NCBI GenBank assembly: GCA_947466965.1
Contig: CANIFU010000012.1
Span: 1-52,780 of the forward strand
Direction of reading: 5' to 3'
DNA length: 52,780 nucleotides
From: Bacteroidota bacterium
Lineage (GTDB): Bacteria > Bacteroidota > Bacteroidia > 2-12-FULL-35-15
Shown here: positions 23,647 through 42,216 of the stretch, in pieces
Numbering within the stretch: position 1 is the stretch's first letter
Layout of the letters: every line of letters begins with the position of its first letter
Made by a program: the position numbers and the translations under genes
The notes under the pieces: generated by a model
Database searches by the model: none
Told to the model about the DNA's origin: nothing
What the model saw: only the letters and a program-made list of their open reading frames with translations

Positions 23647-23682
23647 AAAAAAAGCTCCGATAATTTTATCGGAGCTTTTTTT
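23647..23682. terminator. Bidirectional terminator between lipoprotein gene and infB
   Basis: AAGCTCCGATA-ATTT-TATCGGAGCTT forms an 11-bp stem with A-run and T-run flanks. It serves the convergent lipoprotein gene (plus) and infB (minus), whose stop codons lie 20 nt on either side. Confidence 0.92.
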
Positions 23683-23701: not shown

Positions 23702-26548
23702 TTACAATTTCGCTTTTATTTCAACCAATTCGTAGCCTTCAATAATATCTCCGGCTTTAATGTCATTAAAGTTTTTGATATTCAATCCGCATTCGAATCC
23801 TTTATTCACTTCTTTCACATCATCTTTGAAGCGTTTTAGTGAACCTAATTCGCCATCATGAACAACAATGCCATCGCGTATGATTCGTACTTTTGTATTC
23901 CGGTTAACTTTACCATCCAATACAAAACATCCTGCAATGGTTCCTACTTTTGTGATGTTAAATACTTCGCGAATCTCGATGTTACAAACAACTTTTTCCT
24001 GAAACTCCGGAGCCAACATCCCTTCCATCGCTGCTTGAATCTCTTCAATTGCTTTGTAGATGATGGAATATAGGCGGATATCGATTTGTTCTACATCAGC
24101 GATTTTGCGAGCACCCGCAGATGGACGCACCTGGAATCCGATAATAATCGCATTGGATGCAGAAGCTAATAATACATCAGATTCAGAAATTGCTCCAACT
24201 GATTTATGTATGATTTTTACCTGAACTTTTTCAGTAGATAATTTTTGCAATGAATCGGCAAGCGCTTCAACAGAACCATCCACGTCACCTTTAACAATCA
24301 CGTTTAATTCCTTGAAATCACCGATTGCCAAACGTCTACCGATCTCATCCAATGTAATATGTTTGTTTGTCCGGATACCTTGTTCGCGTTGTAATTGTAA
24401 ACGTTTAGCAGCGATTTCGCGCGCTTCACGCTCATCATTCATAATGTGAAACTTATCACCAGCCTGAGGTGCACCGCTTAATCCAAGAAGTGATACAGGC
24501 ATTGCCGGACCCGCTTCTTTAACGATTTGTCCGCGCTCGTTGTGTAAAGCTTTTACTTTACCGCTGAAACATCCCGCCAGCACAATATCTCCCACATGTA
24601 AAGTGCCTGCTTCAACTAAGATCGTACTTACATATCCACGTCCTTTATCTAATTCGGATTCAATAACAGTTCCGCTTGCATTTTTATTCGGGTTTGCTTT
24701 CAGGCTTAACATTTCAGCCTCAAGCAATACTTTTTCAAGAAGCTCTTCAATGTTCAATCCTTTTTTAGCAGAAATTTCCTGGCATTGAACTTTCCCACCC
24801 CACTCTTCCACAAGAATATTCATTTGTGATAATGCCTGACGGATGTTATCGGGATTTGCACCCGGTTTATCAATTTTATTTATAGCAATAATGATTGGAA
24901 CACCTGCTGCTTGAGCGTGATTTATCGCCTCTGTTGTTTGAGGCATTACACTGTCGTCGGCAGCAACTACAATAATTGCAATATCCGTAACCTGAGCACC
25001 ACGTGCACGCATCGCTGTAAAGGCTTCGTGACCGGGAGTATCTAGGAAGGTAATTGTTTTTCCGTTTTCTAATTTTACGTTATAAGCACCGATATGCTGT
25101 GTGATACCACCCGCTTCACCGGCAATAACATTTGCTTTACGGATATAATCAAGCAAGGATGTTTTACCGTGGTCAACGTGACCCATTACCGTAACGATCG
25201 GTGAACGATCTAATAATTGGTCTTCTGTATCGGCCTCTTCTTTGATAGCTTCTTGTACTTCCACACTCACAAATTCGAGTTGGTATCCAAATTCTTCAGC
25301 AACAATAGCAATGGTTTCTGCGTCCAATCGTTGGTTGATGGAAACGAACATTCCCAGACTCATACACGTTGAAATGATTTCATTCACAGAAATATCCATC
25401 ATTTGTGCTAACTGATTCGCAGAAACGAATTCAGTAACTTTGATGATTTTCTTTTCTGCTTCGTGTTGGTCAGCAGCTTCCTGAATACGCTCACTTGCAA
25501 TATCACGTTTTGATTTACGATGTTTCGAAGCTTTTGACTTTCCGGCACCGCTTAATCTGGCAAGCGTTTCTTTTACCTGAGCAGCAATTTGGTCGGGTGT
25601 TAATTCTACCTTCGCAACCCGAGGAGCAAATTTTCCTTTTGCACCAGCTTGCGTATTTACATGGTTGTTTGGGTATTGCTTTCTAGGTGCATTTGCGCCA
25701 GTTGAAGCAGGAGTTCCTTCTGTACCTGGTTTTTTATTCGGATCCCATGCATCTCCAAGCGTTGCACCGCCAAAACTTTTTTTAATGCGTTTACGTTTTT
25801 TCTTATTGTCGGCATTAGCTGCAGATGAAGATGCAACCGGATTTTTTTTGCGCTCCTCTTTTACAGGAAGTTCAATTTTACCCATTATTTTAGGCCCCTC
25901 AAGTTTTTCTACTTTTGTTTCGTAGAAATCTACTTTTGCGGGGTCTTCTGCCTGAATTACTAATGGATCAACTTTTTCAACAACTACGGGCTTTTCTACA
26001 ACTATCAGCGATTTTTTTTCTTTTACAATAGCGTTTTTTTCATCGTCTTTTTTTCCTTGTTCTTTTTCCGTTTTTGCTTTTTTAGTAGGTTTGGTTTTGC
26101 TGTTAATAGAATCAAGATCAATTTTAGAAACGACAGTAATCTTAACGTCAGATTTGATCACTTCTTTTTCTACTACTATTTCTTTTTCTAATTCACCAGC
26201 AGGTTTTTTTTCTACTTTTTCTTTAACGATAGTCGCATCAGGGATATTTTTAATAATAATATCTTCTTCTTCTTCTTTCTTTTTTGACTCCGTTTTAGGT
26301 GCGTCTTCAAGAGAAATGCTTTCTTTTTTTGCACGTGTGCTTGATGTAACTTGTTTCGCCTCTTCCTTTGCAGCTTTTTCGGATTGATATTCTTTCGCTA
26401 ATAAAGAATAGTTTTCCTCGGAAATTTTGGCCATCGGGTTATTCTCTACCGTTTGGCCTTTGCTCTTAAGAAATTCAGTTATCGTCCCAATACTTACATT
26501 GAGTTCTTTTGCAACTTTACTTAAACGTTGTCCTTTGTTTTCTGACAT
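23702..26548 (-). CDS. infB: Translation initiation factor IF-2
   Basis: This 948-residue GTPase brings initiator tRNA to the small ribosomal subunit. The N-terminus has an IF2_N-type helical domain ([19 protein letters not shown]). A long lysine/glutamate-rich disordered region follows (about 60-330), then a second IF2_N segment (about 370-420). The GTPase domain starts near 452 with P-loop [17 protein letters not shown] and NKIDKPG. Two beta-barrel domains follow, ending LVEIKAKL. The disordered region makes it longer than the E. coli protein, common in this phylum. It is the last gene of rimP-nusA-infB, 97 nt after nusA. Confidence 0.98.
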
Positions 26549-26645: not shown

Positions 26646-27896
26646 TTATTCAAATTCTGATTGAAGGATCTGTTTCACTTCGTTAACCGTTACTTCTTCC
26701 AAATCAGTCCGTTTTACTAATTCTTCAGTTGTTAATTCCAATACACTTTTAGCAGTATCGCAACCAATGTTTTTCAATTCATCAATGATCCAACTTTCAA
26801 TTTCATCGGAAAATTCTTCCAAATCCACATCTTCTAAGTCGATATCAGTATCGCGGTAAACATCAATTTCATAACCTGTTAATTTACCCGCTAATTTAAT
26901 GTTATGGCCACCTTTACCAATTGCTAATGATACTTGGTCGGGTTTCAAAAACACTTCTGCACGTTTTGTTTCTTCATCAATTTTAACTGAAGTGATCTTA
27001 GCCGGACTCAGCGCACGAGTAATGAATAAGGAAGGGTTGCTGGTATAATTTATAACGTCAATATTTTCGTTGCGTAATTCGCGAACGATTCCGTGAATAC
27101 GAGATCCTTTCATTCCAACACATGCTCCAACTGGGTCAATTCTGTCGTCATAAGATTCAACGGCTACTTTAGCTCTTTCTCCTGGCTCGCGAACAATTTT
27201 TTTAATTGTAATTAGTCCATCAAAAACTTCGGGTACTTCTAATTCAAATAAACGCTCAAGGAAAGCAGGCGAGATACGAGATAAAACAATTACAGGTGAA
27301 TTGTTTTTCATATCAACACGTTGAACTACGGCTTTTAACGAGTCCCCTTTTTTGAAGAAATCAGAAGGAATCTGTTCTGTTTTAGGCAATAAAAGTTCGT
27401 TTCCATCTTCATCTAAAATCAACAGTTCTTTTTTCCATATTTGGTAAACTTCACCAGTCATGATTTCACCAACTTTTTCTTTGTATTTTTTGTATAAGCT
27501 ATCTTTCTCCAGTTCTAAAATCTTAGAAACCAAATTTTGACGAACAGCCAATACAGCACGTCTTCCAAAGTCAAGAAGTTTTACAGGGGTAACTGTTTCT
27601 TCTCCAATTTCTAAACTATCATCAATTTTTTTCGCGTCTGTTAAACTGATGTGTTTTGCCTCATCATAGTCAAAACTATCTTCGGCAAATTCATCGTCAA
27701 CTACTTCACGATTGTGCCAGATTTCGATATCACCACGATCGGGATTAACGATGATATCAAAATTTTCATCGGAGCCATATTTTTTCAAAAGCATACTACG
27801 AAACACATCTTCGATGATGCTCATTAAGGTTGCTCTGTCGATGTTTTTTACTTCTTTGAATTCTGAGAACGATTCAATTAAATTAATACTTTCCAT
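26646..27896 (-). CDS. nusA: Transcription elongation/termination factor NusA
   Basis: This 416-residue protein has the NusA N-terminal RNA polymerase-binding domain (about 1-130), an S1 domain (about 135-205) and two KH domains (about 205-350), with GMKGSRIHGIVREL and LAIGKGGHNIKLAGKLTG. A short acidic C-terminal region (365-416) replaces the longer repeats of the E. coli protein. It controls pausing, termination and antitermination. It starts 12 nt after rimP. NusA can act on hairpins like the one in the rimP leader, so feedback control of the operon is plausible. Confidence 0.97.
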   Translation of the reverse strand: MESINLIESFSEFKEVKNIDRATLMSIIEDVFRSMLLKKYGSDENFDIIVNPDRGDIEIWHNREVVDDEFAEDSFDYDEAKHISLTDAKKIDDSLEIGEETVTPVKLLDFGRRAVLAVRQNLVSKILELEKDSLYKKYKEKVGEIMTGEVYQIWKKELLILDEDGNELLLPKTEQIPSDFFKKGDSLKAVVQRVDMKNNSPVIVLSRISPAFLERLFELEVPEVFDGLITIKKIVREPGERAKVAVESYDDRIDPVGACVGMKGSRIHGIVRELRNENIDVINYTSNPSLFITRALSPAKITSVKIDEETKRAEVFLKPDQVSLAIGKGGHNIKLAGKLTGYEIDVYRDTDIDLEDVDLEEFSDEIESWIIDELKNIGCDTAKSVLELTTEELVKRTDLEEVTVNEVKQILQSEFE

Positions 27897-27908: not shown

Positions 27909-28373
27909 TTAAAATGATATTACAATTTTAGTTTCTTTGATTTGATTAAATGTTAATTTGATGTTATTTATAATTAATTGTTTTCCTTTTTTGCCTGCAA
28001 TTGTTTCTTTTATCTTTGTTTCCAGTTCTATTCCGGATTCTTCTGCTTTTAGTAGCTTTCCGCTTAATTTTTTACCTTCTTTTGTAACAATATCAACGTA
28101 TTTGCCAATGTTTTTTTTGTATTGACGAAGAATTTTAAATGGTTCTGATAATCCGGGTGACATTACATTTAATTCAAAATCATCCGATTCTCTATCTAAA
28201 TGCGATTCAATATGTCTGCTCATTGCAACGCAATCTCCAATTGAAACGCCCTTGTCATTATCCAGCAGCACAATTATTTTATTTCCTGTTTTAACCGCAA
28301 TATCTACAATAAAATTAGTCCCTTCAGCGAGTTTTTCATCTGCAAGTTTTTGAATTTTATCTATTGTGATCAT
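27909..28373 (-). CDS. rimP: Ribosome maturation factor RimP
   Basis: This 154-residue protein has the RimP two-domain form: an N-terminal alpha/beta domain (about 1-75, with DNDKGVSIGDCVAMSRHIE and NVMSPGLSEPF) and a C-terminal SH3-like barrel. It assists 30S subunit maturation. It is the first gene of the rimP-nusA-infB operon. The start codon lies 15 nt after a terminator-like hairpin in the leader, and a consensus promoter lies at 28442-28472. Confidence 0.94.
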   Translation of the reverse strand: MITIDKIQKLADEKLAEGTNFIVDIAVKTGNKIIVLLDNDKGVSIGDCVAMSRHIESHLDRESDDFELNVMSPGLSEPFKILRQYKKNIGKYVDIVTKEGKKLSGKLLKAEESGIELETKIKETIAGKKGKQLIINNIKLTFNQIKETKIVISF

Positions 28374-28388
28374 ATCAGTTATTTGAAT

Positions 28389-28417
28389 AAAAAGAGGGGA
28401 CTTTTGTCCCCTCTTTT
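28389..28417 (-). terminator. Terminator-like hairpin in the rimP leader
   Basis: AAGAGGGGAC-TTTT-GTCCCCTCTT forms a GC-rich stem of 10 to 12 bp. On the minus strand it is followed by five T residues. It lies between the inferred transcription start (about 28438) and the rimP ATG at 28373. No other gene upstream on the minus strand would need it, so it probably acts as an attenuator on this operon. Confidence 0.75.
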
Positions 28418-28441
28418 GTCTGTTCTTTTAATTAAGCACTG

Positions 28442-28472
28442 CAAATATAAGTCAATCTTTCCGATATACAAA
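28442..28472 (-). promoter_or_regulatory. Consensus promoter of rimP-nusA-infB
   Basis: On the minus strand TTTG (28469-28472), 19 nt, then TATATTTG (28442-28449) is an exact match to the Bacteroidota sigma-ABfr consensus. The predicted start near 28438 gives a leader of about 65 nt that contains the hairpin. Confidence 0.75.
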
Positions 28473-28754: not shown

Positions 28755-29147
28755 ATGGGAACAAAACGAATAATAAGCTGCATTTTCAATAGAAAAAGTA
28801 GTTTAACGAGTATGATTTTTTTCTTTTTTTTCTTATTGCTGCCTTCATCAAAAGCGGAAGAAATAGATAGTATTAATAATTCTAAAGCAATTATTGCAGC
28901 TGATTCTTCGGGTCCTTCTTTATCAAATTTATCTAAAAATTTGAATTTGGGTGCTGAAGAGCTTGAAAAAATCCGTCACGAAGAGATCATGAGTTATGTT
29001 TATATGGTTCTTGGTTTTTCGATAGTAATTTTCATAGCATGGTTTACAACAGTGCTTGCAAAAAAACAAAAAAATAAAGAACTTGAAATAAGAGCTTCAA
29101 GGTTAAAAAACACGAATCCCAAACAACAACATTCTAGAAGAAGGTAA
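28755..29147 (+). CDS. Small membrane protein of unknown function
   Basis: This 130-residue protein has a hydrophobic signal-type segment after a basic start (about 18-34, MIFFFFFLLLPSSKAEE). It is followed by a serine/asparagine-rich periplasmic stretch, one transmembrane helix (about 79-98, VYMVLGFSIVIFIAWFTTVL) and a strongly basic cytoplasmic tail ending HSRRR. I recognise no family. Its stop codon directly abuts, with no gap, the stop codon of the convergent MORN-repeat gene. Coding status rests on the coherent topology, not on homology. Confidence 0.55.
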   Translation: MGTKRIISCIFNRKSSLTSMIFFFFFLLLPSSKAEEIDSINNSKAIIAADSSGPSLSNLSKNLNLGAEELEKIRHEEIMSYVYMVLGFSIVIFIAWFTTVLAKKQKNKELEIRASRLKNTNPKQQHSRRR

Positions 29148-39685: not shown

Positions 39686-39722
39686 AACACCGAACCCCCG
39701 CAAGTTGCGAGGGTTCGGTGTT
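39686..39722. repeat. Strong hairpin between nrdA and rlmF
   Basis: AACACCGAACCC (39686-39697) pairs perfectly with GGGTTCGGTGTT (39711-39722), and the loop region forms a further short stem (CGCA/TGCG). It lies 19 nt beyond the nrdA stop codon. Neither strand has a T-run after it, so it is not a typical intrinsic terminator. It may stabilise the nrdA mRNA 3' end or act as a weak terminator. Confidence 0.75.
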
Positions 39723-39741
39723 AATAATTACATATTAAATA

Positions 39742-42216
39742 CTAACTGCCACAAGCCTCACAGTCATCCTTGTTATCAATTGAACAAGTGATCTGAGCAG
39801 CCATGAGTGCAGCTTTTTCAGCTTCAGCTTCTAAAAGTGCTTGACGTTCAGCGCTGATTTGTTGTTGACGTTCCATTACTAAAACATCTTCATTGCCTAA
39901 CACTTCAGTTGCTGCAGTAGCAACAGCTATTCCTTCAGGAGTTTCTTTCGCAGCAGCAGCATCTGCAGTAAATTTAATTGCATCAGCCGCAGCTTTTGTA
40001 CGTAGGTAATACATTCCCGTTTTTAATCCTGCTTTCCATCCGTAGAAATGCATGGAAGAAAGTTTCGCGAAATTTGCATCCTGAACAAATAAGTTTAATG
40101 ATTGCGACTGACAGATATATGCGCCACGATCTGCAGCCATATTGATAATTACTTTTTGAGAAATTTCCCAAACAGTTTTGTACAATGCCTTTACATTTTC
40201 AGGAATTTCAGCGATATTTTGTACCGATCCATTTGCAATGATGATCTTGTTCTTCAATGAATCGTTCCAGATTCCTAGTTTTACAAGGTCTTTCAATAAG
40301 TGTTTGTTTACAATAACAAACTCTCCCGACAATACTCTTCTTGAATAGATGTTTGATGTATATGGTTCAAAACATTCGTTGTTACCTAAGATCTGAGAAG
40401 TAGAAGCAGTAGGCATTGGCGCCAATAATAAAGAGTTGCGAACACCGTGGGTTTTCACTTCTTCTTTCAATATATCCCATTCCCAACGGGAAGAAGGCGT
40501 TACATTCCACATATCAAATTGGAAAACACCTTTTGATACGGGGGAGCCTGCAAATGTTTCGTATGGTCCCTCTAATTTTGCAAGGTCTTTCGAAGCAGTC
40601 ATTGCTGCATAATAAATTGTTTCGTGAATTTCCTTGTTCAATTGAACAGCTTCAGGAGAATCGAATGGAAAACGCATTAAAATGAATGCATCTGCTAATC
40701 CTTGAACACCAATACCGATAGGACGGTGACGCATGTTCGAGTTGCGTGCTTCAGCAACGGGGTAATAATTGCGATCGATGATCTTATTTAAATTTTTTGT
40801 GATTACATATGTGATGTCGAATAATCGTTGGTGATCAAATTTTCCATCTTCCACAAAGCGTGGCAATGCGATGGAGGCAAGGTTACAAACTGCAATCTCA
40901 TCAGGAGAGGTATATTCCATGATTTCGGTACACAAGTTTGAAGACTTAATCGTACCCAAATTTTGTTGATTGCTTTTCCCGTTACAAGCATCTTTGTATA
41001 GCATGTAAGGATTACCTGTTTCGATTTGTGAATCGATGATTGCTGCCCAAAGTTCCCGTGCCTGAATTGTTTTGCGTGCTTTGCCTTCTTTTTCGTAACC
41101 CGTATATAACGCTTCAAATTCTGCACCCCAACAATCCGCTAATCCAGGAGCTTCATTCGGGCAGAATAAAGACCATGTACTGTTTTCTTCAACACGTTTC
41201 ATGAATAGATCGGGTGTCCACATTGCTGTAAACAAATCACGCGCACGTGCTTCTTCTTTTCCTGTGTTTTTACGAAGATCTAAGAATTCATAGATATCAG
41301 CATGCCAAGGCTCTAAATAAATAGCGAAAGAACCTTTGCGTTTTCCGCCCCCTTGATCCACATAACGAGCTGTATCATTGAATACACGTAACATAGGAAC
41401 GATACCATTTGAGGTGCCGTTTGTGCCGCGAATATAAGAACCTGTAGCGCGAATGTTATGAATACTTAATCCAATTCCACCGGCACTTTGCGAAATTTTA
41501 GCACACGATTTTAATGTATCATAGATTCCATCAATGCTATCATCTTTTACTGTTAATAAAAAGCAAGAAGACATTTGAGGTTTCGGCGTACCTGCATTAA
41601 ATAATGTAGGAGTGGCATGTGTGAACCAACGTTCAGACATTAAGTTGTATGTTTCGATAACAGAAGCAATATCATCTTTGTGGATACCAACGGCAACACG
41701 CATTACCATGTGTTGAGGACGCTCAGCAACTTGTCCGTTTAATTTTAAAAGGTATGAGCGCTCCAATGTTTTGAAACCAAAATAATCGTACCCAAAATCG
41801 CGGTCGTAGATGATTGTAGAATCAAGTTCCTGCGCATTCTTCTGAATAATCTCATGAACATCATCCGCAATTAAGGGAGCTTTCTTACCGGTCTTTGGGT
41901 CAATATAATTATACAACGCTTCCATTGTTTTTGAAAACGATTTGTTTGTGTTCTTGTGTAAGTTGGAAACAGCTATGCGTGACGCCAATAATGCATAGTC
42001 GGGGTGTTTTGTGGTAAGTGAAGCAGCCGTTTCAGCGGCTAAGTTATCCAGTTCGCTGGTAGTCACACCTTCGTAAATTCCTTCAATTACCTTCATGGCA
42101 ACATTGATAGGAGTAACGTGTATGGGGTCAAGACCGTAGCAAAGTTTTTGGATACGAGCTGTTACTTTATCAAATTTCACTGACTCGCGGTTACCGTCTC
42201 TTTTGATTACGTACAT
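39742..42216 (-). CDS. nrdA: Class Ia ribonucleotide reductase large subunit
   Basis: This 824-residue subunit converts ribonucleoside diphosphates to deoxyribonucleotides. It has an ATP-cone allosteric domain (1-90, [21 protein letters not shown]). The catalytic barrel carries [11 protein letters not shown] with the catalytic Cys, [15 protein letters not shown], and the paired tyrosines in [11 protein letters not shown]. The C-terminus ends in the redox pair of [14 protein letters not shown]. The sequence follows the eukaryotic RRM1 pattern closely. An alanine/glutamate-rich linker (about 745-805) precedes the tail. nrdB lies 166 nt upstream in the same orientation, so co-transcription is likely. 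Confidence 0.97.

Follow-up and report, generated by a model that had tools for sequence, protein, structure and literature searches.

A conserved terminator-like hairpin in the 5′ leader of the rimP-nusA-infB operon of Bacteroidota, a probable attenuator with NusA as candidate effector

The closest described counterpart of the element studied here is the rimP-leader, an attenuator that, according to the main text of Naville and Gautheret (2010; PMC2965389), is common to most of the species examined there and consists of a G-rich 5′ arm, a C-rich 3′ arm and a following T stretch, 4–130 nt before the first gene of the rimP-nusA-infB operon, with a conserved GGGc..gCCC stem and no antiterminator. 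The same text makes for the GGGc..gCCC stem the argument from sequence constraint that we make below for another stem, and names NusA as the best candidate for its reader. Bacteroidota are not mentioned in that main text; our literature search found no paper joining Bacteroides, rimP, nusA and termination, and the 302-genome supplement of PMC2965389 may list some. In B. subtilis, NusA controls its own synthesis by promoting intrinsic termination in the nusA operon leader (PMC12288461), which is about 180 nt long according to the main text of PMC2965389. For gbs0413-gbs0418 of the Firmicute S. agalactiae, short and long RNAs have been mapped by RNA-seq to one start, the short form stopping 31 nt on, at an intrinsic terminator before rimP-nusA-IF2 (PMC4448216).

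Here, we analysed this operon in a stretch of 52,780 nt from a Bacteroidota bacterium (contig CANIFU010000012.1 of assembly GCA_947466965.1; hereafter, the window), in which Pfam domains identify rimP, nusA and infB in this order and the 5′ leader of the operon holds a hairpin. The features of the locus are:

28442..28472, minus strand: Bacteroidota-type promoter, with −33 TTTG at 28472-28469, a 19-nt spacer and −7 TATATTTG at 28449-28442
28374..28438, minus strand: inferred untranslated leader of about 61–65 nt, its start estimated from the promoter position
28390..28417, minus strand: terminator-like hairpin of 12 bp with an AAAA loop (fold, conservation, covariation)
28389..28393, minus strand: T run after the core stem (TTTTTATT), T5, partly paired in the 12-bp form
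27909..28373, minus strand: rimP (Pfam RimP_N and RimP C-terminal SH3 domains)
26646..27896, minus strand: nusA (NusA_N, S1 and KH domains)
23702..26548, minus strand: infB, encoding IF-2 (IF2_N, GTP_EFTU and IF-2 domains)
23654..23675, minus strand: 3′ terminator of the operon, used as comparison site (stem not conserved in the genus)

The core of the hairpin, GAGGGGAC-AAAA-GTCCCCTC (28413-28394), is followed by TTTTTATTC and lengthened by the A and T runs at its flanks to a stem of 12 bp (28417-28390). Between TATATTTG and the first G of the core stem lie 28 bases, and 15 nt separate the T run from the rimP ATG at 28373. Reading of the sequence thus bears out an earlier note on this DNA, which had described an exact consensus promoter (TTTG, 19 nt, TATATTTG) on the minus strand and a hairpin of 10–12 bp with five T residues ending 15 nt before the rimP ATG. 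Its further statement that no upstream minus-strand gene explains the hairpin also holds, as no minus-strand ORF of at least 110 aa lies immediately upstream; because the gene on the other side (28755-29147) is divergent from rimP, no upstream gene needs the hairpin as its terminator.

In its operon position, G-rich and C-rich arms, T stretch (here partly paired), conserved stem and lack of an antiterminator the element resembles the rimP-leader, but the Bacteroidota stem is GAGGGGAC/GTCCCCTC and not GGGc/gCCC. Its leader of about 65 nt is far from the length seen in B. subtilis, where NusA autoregulation is experimental rather than inferred as here, and is very short, as in S. agalactiae, whose RNAs were mapped whereas ours are predicted. 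The E. coli leader differs: it includes metY and RNase III sites, is served by several promoters and has two terminators ahead of rimP, in contrast to the one promoter and one hairpin of the window; the earlier note was therefore right about a different leader arrangement in E. coli as far as metY and the extra promoters and terminators go, but a GGGCTTTAGGCCC hairpin (GGGC..GCCC) with T7 stands about 20 nt before rimP there too. Rfam gave no match in the window at gathering score. The E. coli-like RF01770 model (rimP; 102 positions) had no match in the window's own genome and scored over its cut-off in 0 of 21 genomes, its weak matches in relatives falling elsewhere than rimP; among 14 control genomes it detected E. 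coli alone. RF01770 covers one lineage of the wider rimP-leader class, and the Bacteroidota element, which is not assigned to RF01770, is a form of an already known class that this model leaves uncovered. Matches of the leader to sraA and STnc400 at relaxed scores lay below the cut-offs and were taken as chance, both being A/T-rich models that end in a GC terminator.

We consider it probable that the hairpin is a 5′ leader attenuator of rimP-nusA-infB, the Bacteroidota form of the rimP-leader, at which NusA raises termination as negative feedback. RNA polymerase would start about 65 nt before rimP and make the hairpin almost at once; some polymerases would stop at the T run, releasing a leader RNA of about 45–50 nt, and the rest would read through into the operon. 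NusA, which is encoded in the operon and promotes hairpin formation in the exit channel of the polymerase, would raise the share that stops, such that high NusA may lead to less synthesis of NusA, RimP and IF-2. Folding of the 70-nt leader gives a single 12-bp hairpin with an energy of −20.5 kcal/mol (shuffles, −8.9 ± 2.5; z −4.7; 0 of 200 as good), and no competing (antiterminator) pairing with the stem was seen in this fold; any signal must therefore reach the elongation complex by way of a protein.

Across relatives, the hairpin far exceeds chance expectation. A terminator score, run on the 130 nt before rimP with a pass threshold of 29, was passed by 30 of 30 leaders of the same genus, where dinucleotide shuffles reached 1.0% and control stretches 270–400 nt upstream 3.6%. 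It was also passed by 85% of one sample and 95% of another from other families of the class, and by 78% of 40 leaders from other classes; over all groups, shuffles passed at 0.3–1.8% and the upstream stretches at 0–7.5%. The antisense strand passed less often (60% in the genus, 15% in the class, 8% in other classes), its passes in the genus being due to the A run that precedes the stem. The scorer sometimes took the terminator of the upstream gene instead of the leader hairpin (L046, L048, L055, L059, L078, L099), and such cases were checked by eye.

Promoter and hairpin occur together in all 30 rimP leaders of the genus, with TAnnTTTG at a near-constant place, in nearly all leaders of about 30 other families of the class and in most from other classes; the same layout recurs in 20 further families of the class, and TAnnTTTG lies within 60 nt upstream of the hairpin in each of the 68 leaders with a canonical stem. 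The DNA pattern GAGGGGACN{3,7}GTCCCCTCTTT, scanned in a collection of 84,980 genomes, matched at least 119 stretches. Among the 119 matches listed, which include Flavobacterium, Hymenobacter, Pedobacter, Algoriphagus, Capnocytophaga, Saprospiraceae and Bacteroidales, 112 are on the sense strand with rimP immediately downstream, 3 others comprise the leader and the first part of a rimP-like frame where the locus ends, and the remaining 4, from bins outside the Bacteroidota, have loci that lack rimP. The leader of Flavobacterium johnsoniae (L244) is of this kind. The motif is found once in the window's genome, and a near-consensus motif in the class is nearly always a rimP leader.

The sequence of the stem follows lineage. 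The conserved form GGGGAC/GTCCCC is found in most Bacteroidia and other stems elsewhere, the motif of the rimP-leader class being GGGc(...)gCCC; in 80 more leaders the stems likewise vary by lineage, with GAGGGGAC/GTCCCCTC in most Bacteroidia. Individual families carry GAAGGGAACG/CGTTCCCTTC (f26), GAGGGAAC (f28), GTGAGCG.. (f43), GTCCCGC (f50), GTGGG (f37) or CGCCC (f36 and f54). In f26, GAAGGGAACG/CGTTCCCTTC is a second fixed stem, conserved across genera (L081, L085, L089, L090, L092). The f43 leaders (L112, L113, L121, L122, L124, L126, L127, L144) share a conserved stem GTGAGCGYC..GGYNCTCAC with internal mismatches whose position is constant from genus to genus, as though the unpaired bases had a role.

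Alignment of the rimP leaders of relatives with a test for covariation, the check that the earlier note had proposed, found the hairpin kept phylum-wide and covarying. In the 68 leaders whose stems differ from the canonical one by at most two changes, the altered pairs comprise 9 sense-strand G-U, 8 compensatory Watson-Crick, no A-C and 1 mismatch. The excess of sense-strand G-U over A-C (9 to 0, P 0.002) is independent of the choice of near-canonical leaders, because selection counted letter changes and not pairs. The covariation score of 35 aligned stems, whose near-canonical choice favours pairing, is 0.141, against 0.097 ± 0.008 for shuffles (0 of 500 as high), and falls when the pairing partners are slid. 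Loops vary in length (3–9 nt) and also in sequence. Since the stem changes are compensatory or sense-strand G-U, the element works as RNA.

The stem is also held constant in its letters. Within the genus, identity averages 96% over the 16 stem bases, against 45% over the 4-base loops and 44% over the 20 nt before the stem, whereas the outer 8 pairs of the infB 3′ terminators of the same genus, aligned by the outer end alone, are 31% identical, about the level of unrelated stems. The infB terminator stems are freely replaced and the leader stem is kept; the letters of the latter are therefore constrained beyond what forming a terminator demands, and their constancy exceeds the needs of a plain NusA-helped terminator. 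The comparison site in the window (23654-23675) is symmetric, with T runs on both sides, between the convergent infB and a plus-strand gene, and its stem is wholly different among genomes of the genus. The question this raises is why the sequence of one terminator stem has stayed fixed throughout a class when those elsewhere drift freely. One possible answer, which we put forward tentatively, is that the stem, more than a terminator, is a binding site whose letters, GAGGGGAC/GTCCCCTC, are recognised by NusA or by some other polymerase-bound protein, with site and reader having changed together between lineages; if true, a general transcription factor would have an autoregulatory signal whose code differs by lineage.

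This constancy also bears on a rival explanation, in which the hairpin is a fixed partial terminator without feedback, there only to hold a strong promoter to a steady low output or to stop stray read-through from entering the operon. A hairpin and a T run would suffice for partial termination and the fold contains no sensing structure, but such a device needs no single stem sequence, contrary to the 96% identity in the leader against 31% in the same operon's 3′ terminators, and relatives with measured data regulate this operon; we regard it as rather unlikely.

The tail after the stem offers a further comparison. A run of 5 T is present in 6 of 30 genus leaders, where an interrupted T tract is the rule, against 18 of 20 infB 3′ terminators (P 1.3e-6, a comparison picked after seeing the tails); a count of T over the 8 bases that follow the stem does not distinguish the two groups (6.7 in leaders versus 6.5 in 3′ terminators, P 0.88). 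Likewise, the distal U tract of B. subtilis terminators that depend on NusA or NusG tends to be interrupted, and those that depend on NusG also tend to weak A-U pairs at the base of the stem (PMC8060035). With all A-U pairs formed, the stem of the window ties up the larger part of the T run, and the remaining tail, UAUUC, is poorly suited to release. The earlier note had suggested attenuation with feedback by NusA: the attenuator is strongly supported by phylum-wide conservation, covariation, the promoter upstream and specificity for rimP/nusA, and NusA feedback, argued by analogy, is the best available hypothesis. The effector at the leader could also be IF-2, NusG or another factor.

Genomes without rimP help to narrow the choice among the operon's products. 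Five genomes have nusA and no detectable rimP: G050 and G058 belong to the class, and G164, G215 and G251 to a single family of another class. A rimP profile search of these genomes with E up to 1 returned a sole, chance-level match (0.097) at an unrelated place in G164, and in all five a TAnnTTTG promoter stands directly before nusA together with a hairpin and its T run. RimP is therefore not needed for the element, and NusA (or IF-2, infB presumably also being downstream in those genomes) is a likelier effector than RimP. The nusA-operon attenuator now extends to nearly the whole of the Bacteroidota and goes with nusA rather than with rimP. The five genomes are near-complete (97–100%), with nusA first in the operon (L147 in G050, L148 in G058, L149 in G215, L150 in G251, L151 in G164); rimP has been lost or has diverged extremely in several Bacteroidota lineages.

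The retention of the element before nusA where rimP is absent speaks against a role after transcription in which the hairpin shields the 5′ end or governs how ribosomes reach the nearby rimP start, with RimP, IF-2 or the ribosome as possible binding partners. Such a role would fit the distance of about 20 nt between hairpin and start codon throughout the genus; however, this distance ranges from 13 to about 120 nt in other families, and the T run is kept on the 3′ side, which makes the idea quite doubtful. A DNA operator for a dimeric regulator just downstream of the promoter, as the near-perfect 8+8 palindrome with its fixed sequence in most Bacteroidia might suggest, is highly improbable and was rejected on the 3–9 nt variation of the spacer between the arms and the strand asymmetry of the deviations, the T run being kept on the sense side and unrelated stems replacing the sequence in other classes.

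Within the window, the rimP leader hairpin is the only strong terminator-like hairpin inside a 5′ leader, the remaining clear hairpins of terminator type on the scored list lying just 3′ of genes (5858, 8713, 23654, 32235, 46124, 47764). A generic terminator scanner listed its plus-strand copy and not the minus-strand site, which was missed because most of the T run is paired within the 12-bp stem; we note this as a weakness of the leader site as a strong terminator. Elsewhere in the window, a 15-bp GC-rich inverted repeat with a 3-nt loop and weak T tails (39688-39720) lies just 3′ of the minus-strand gene at 39742-42216.
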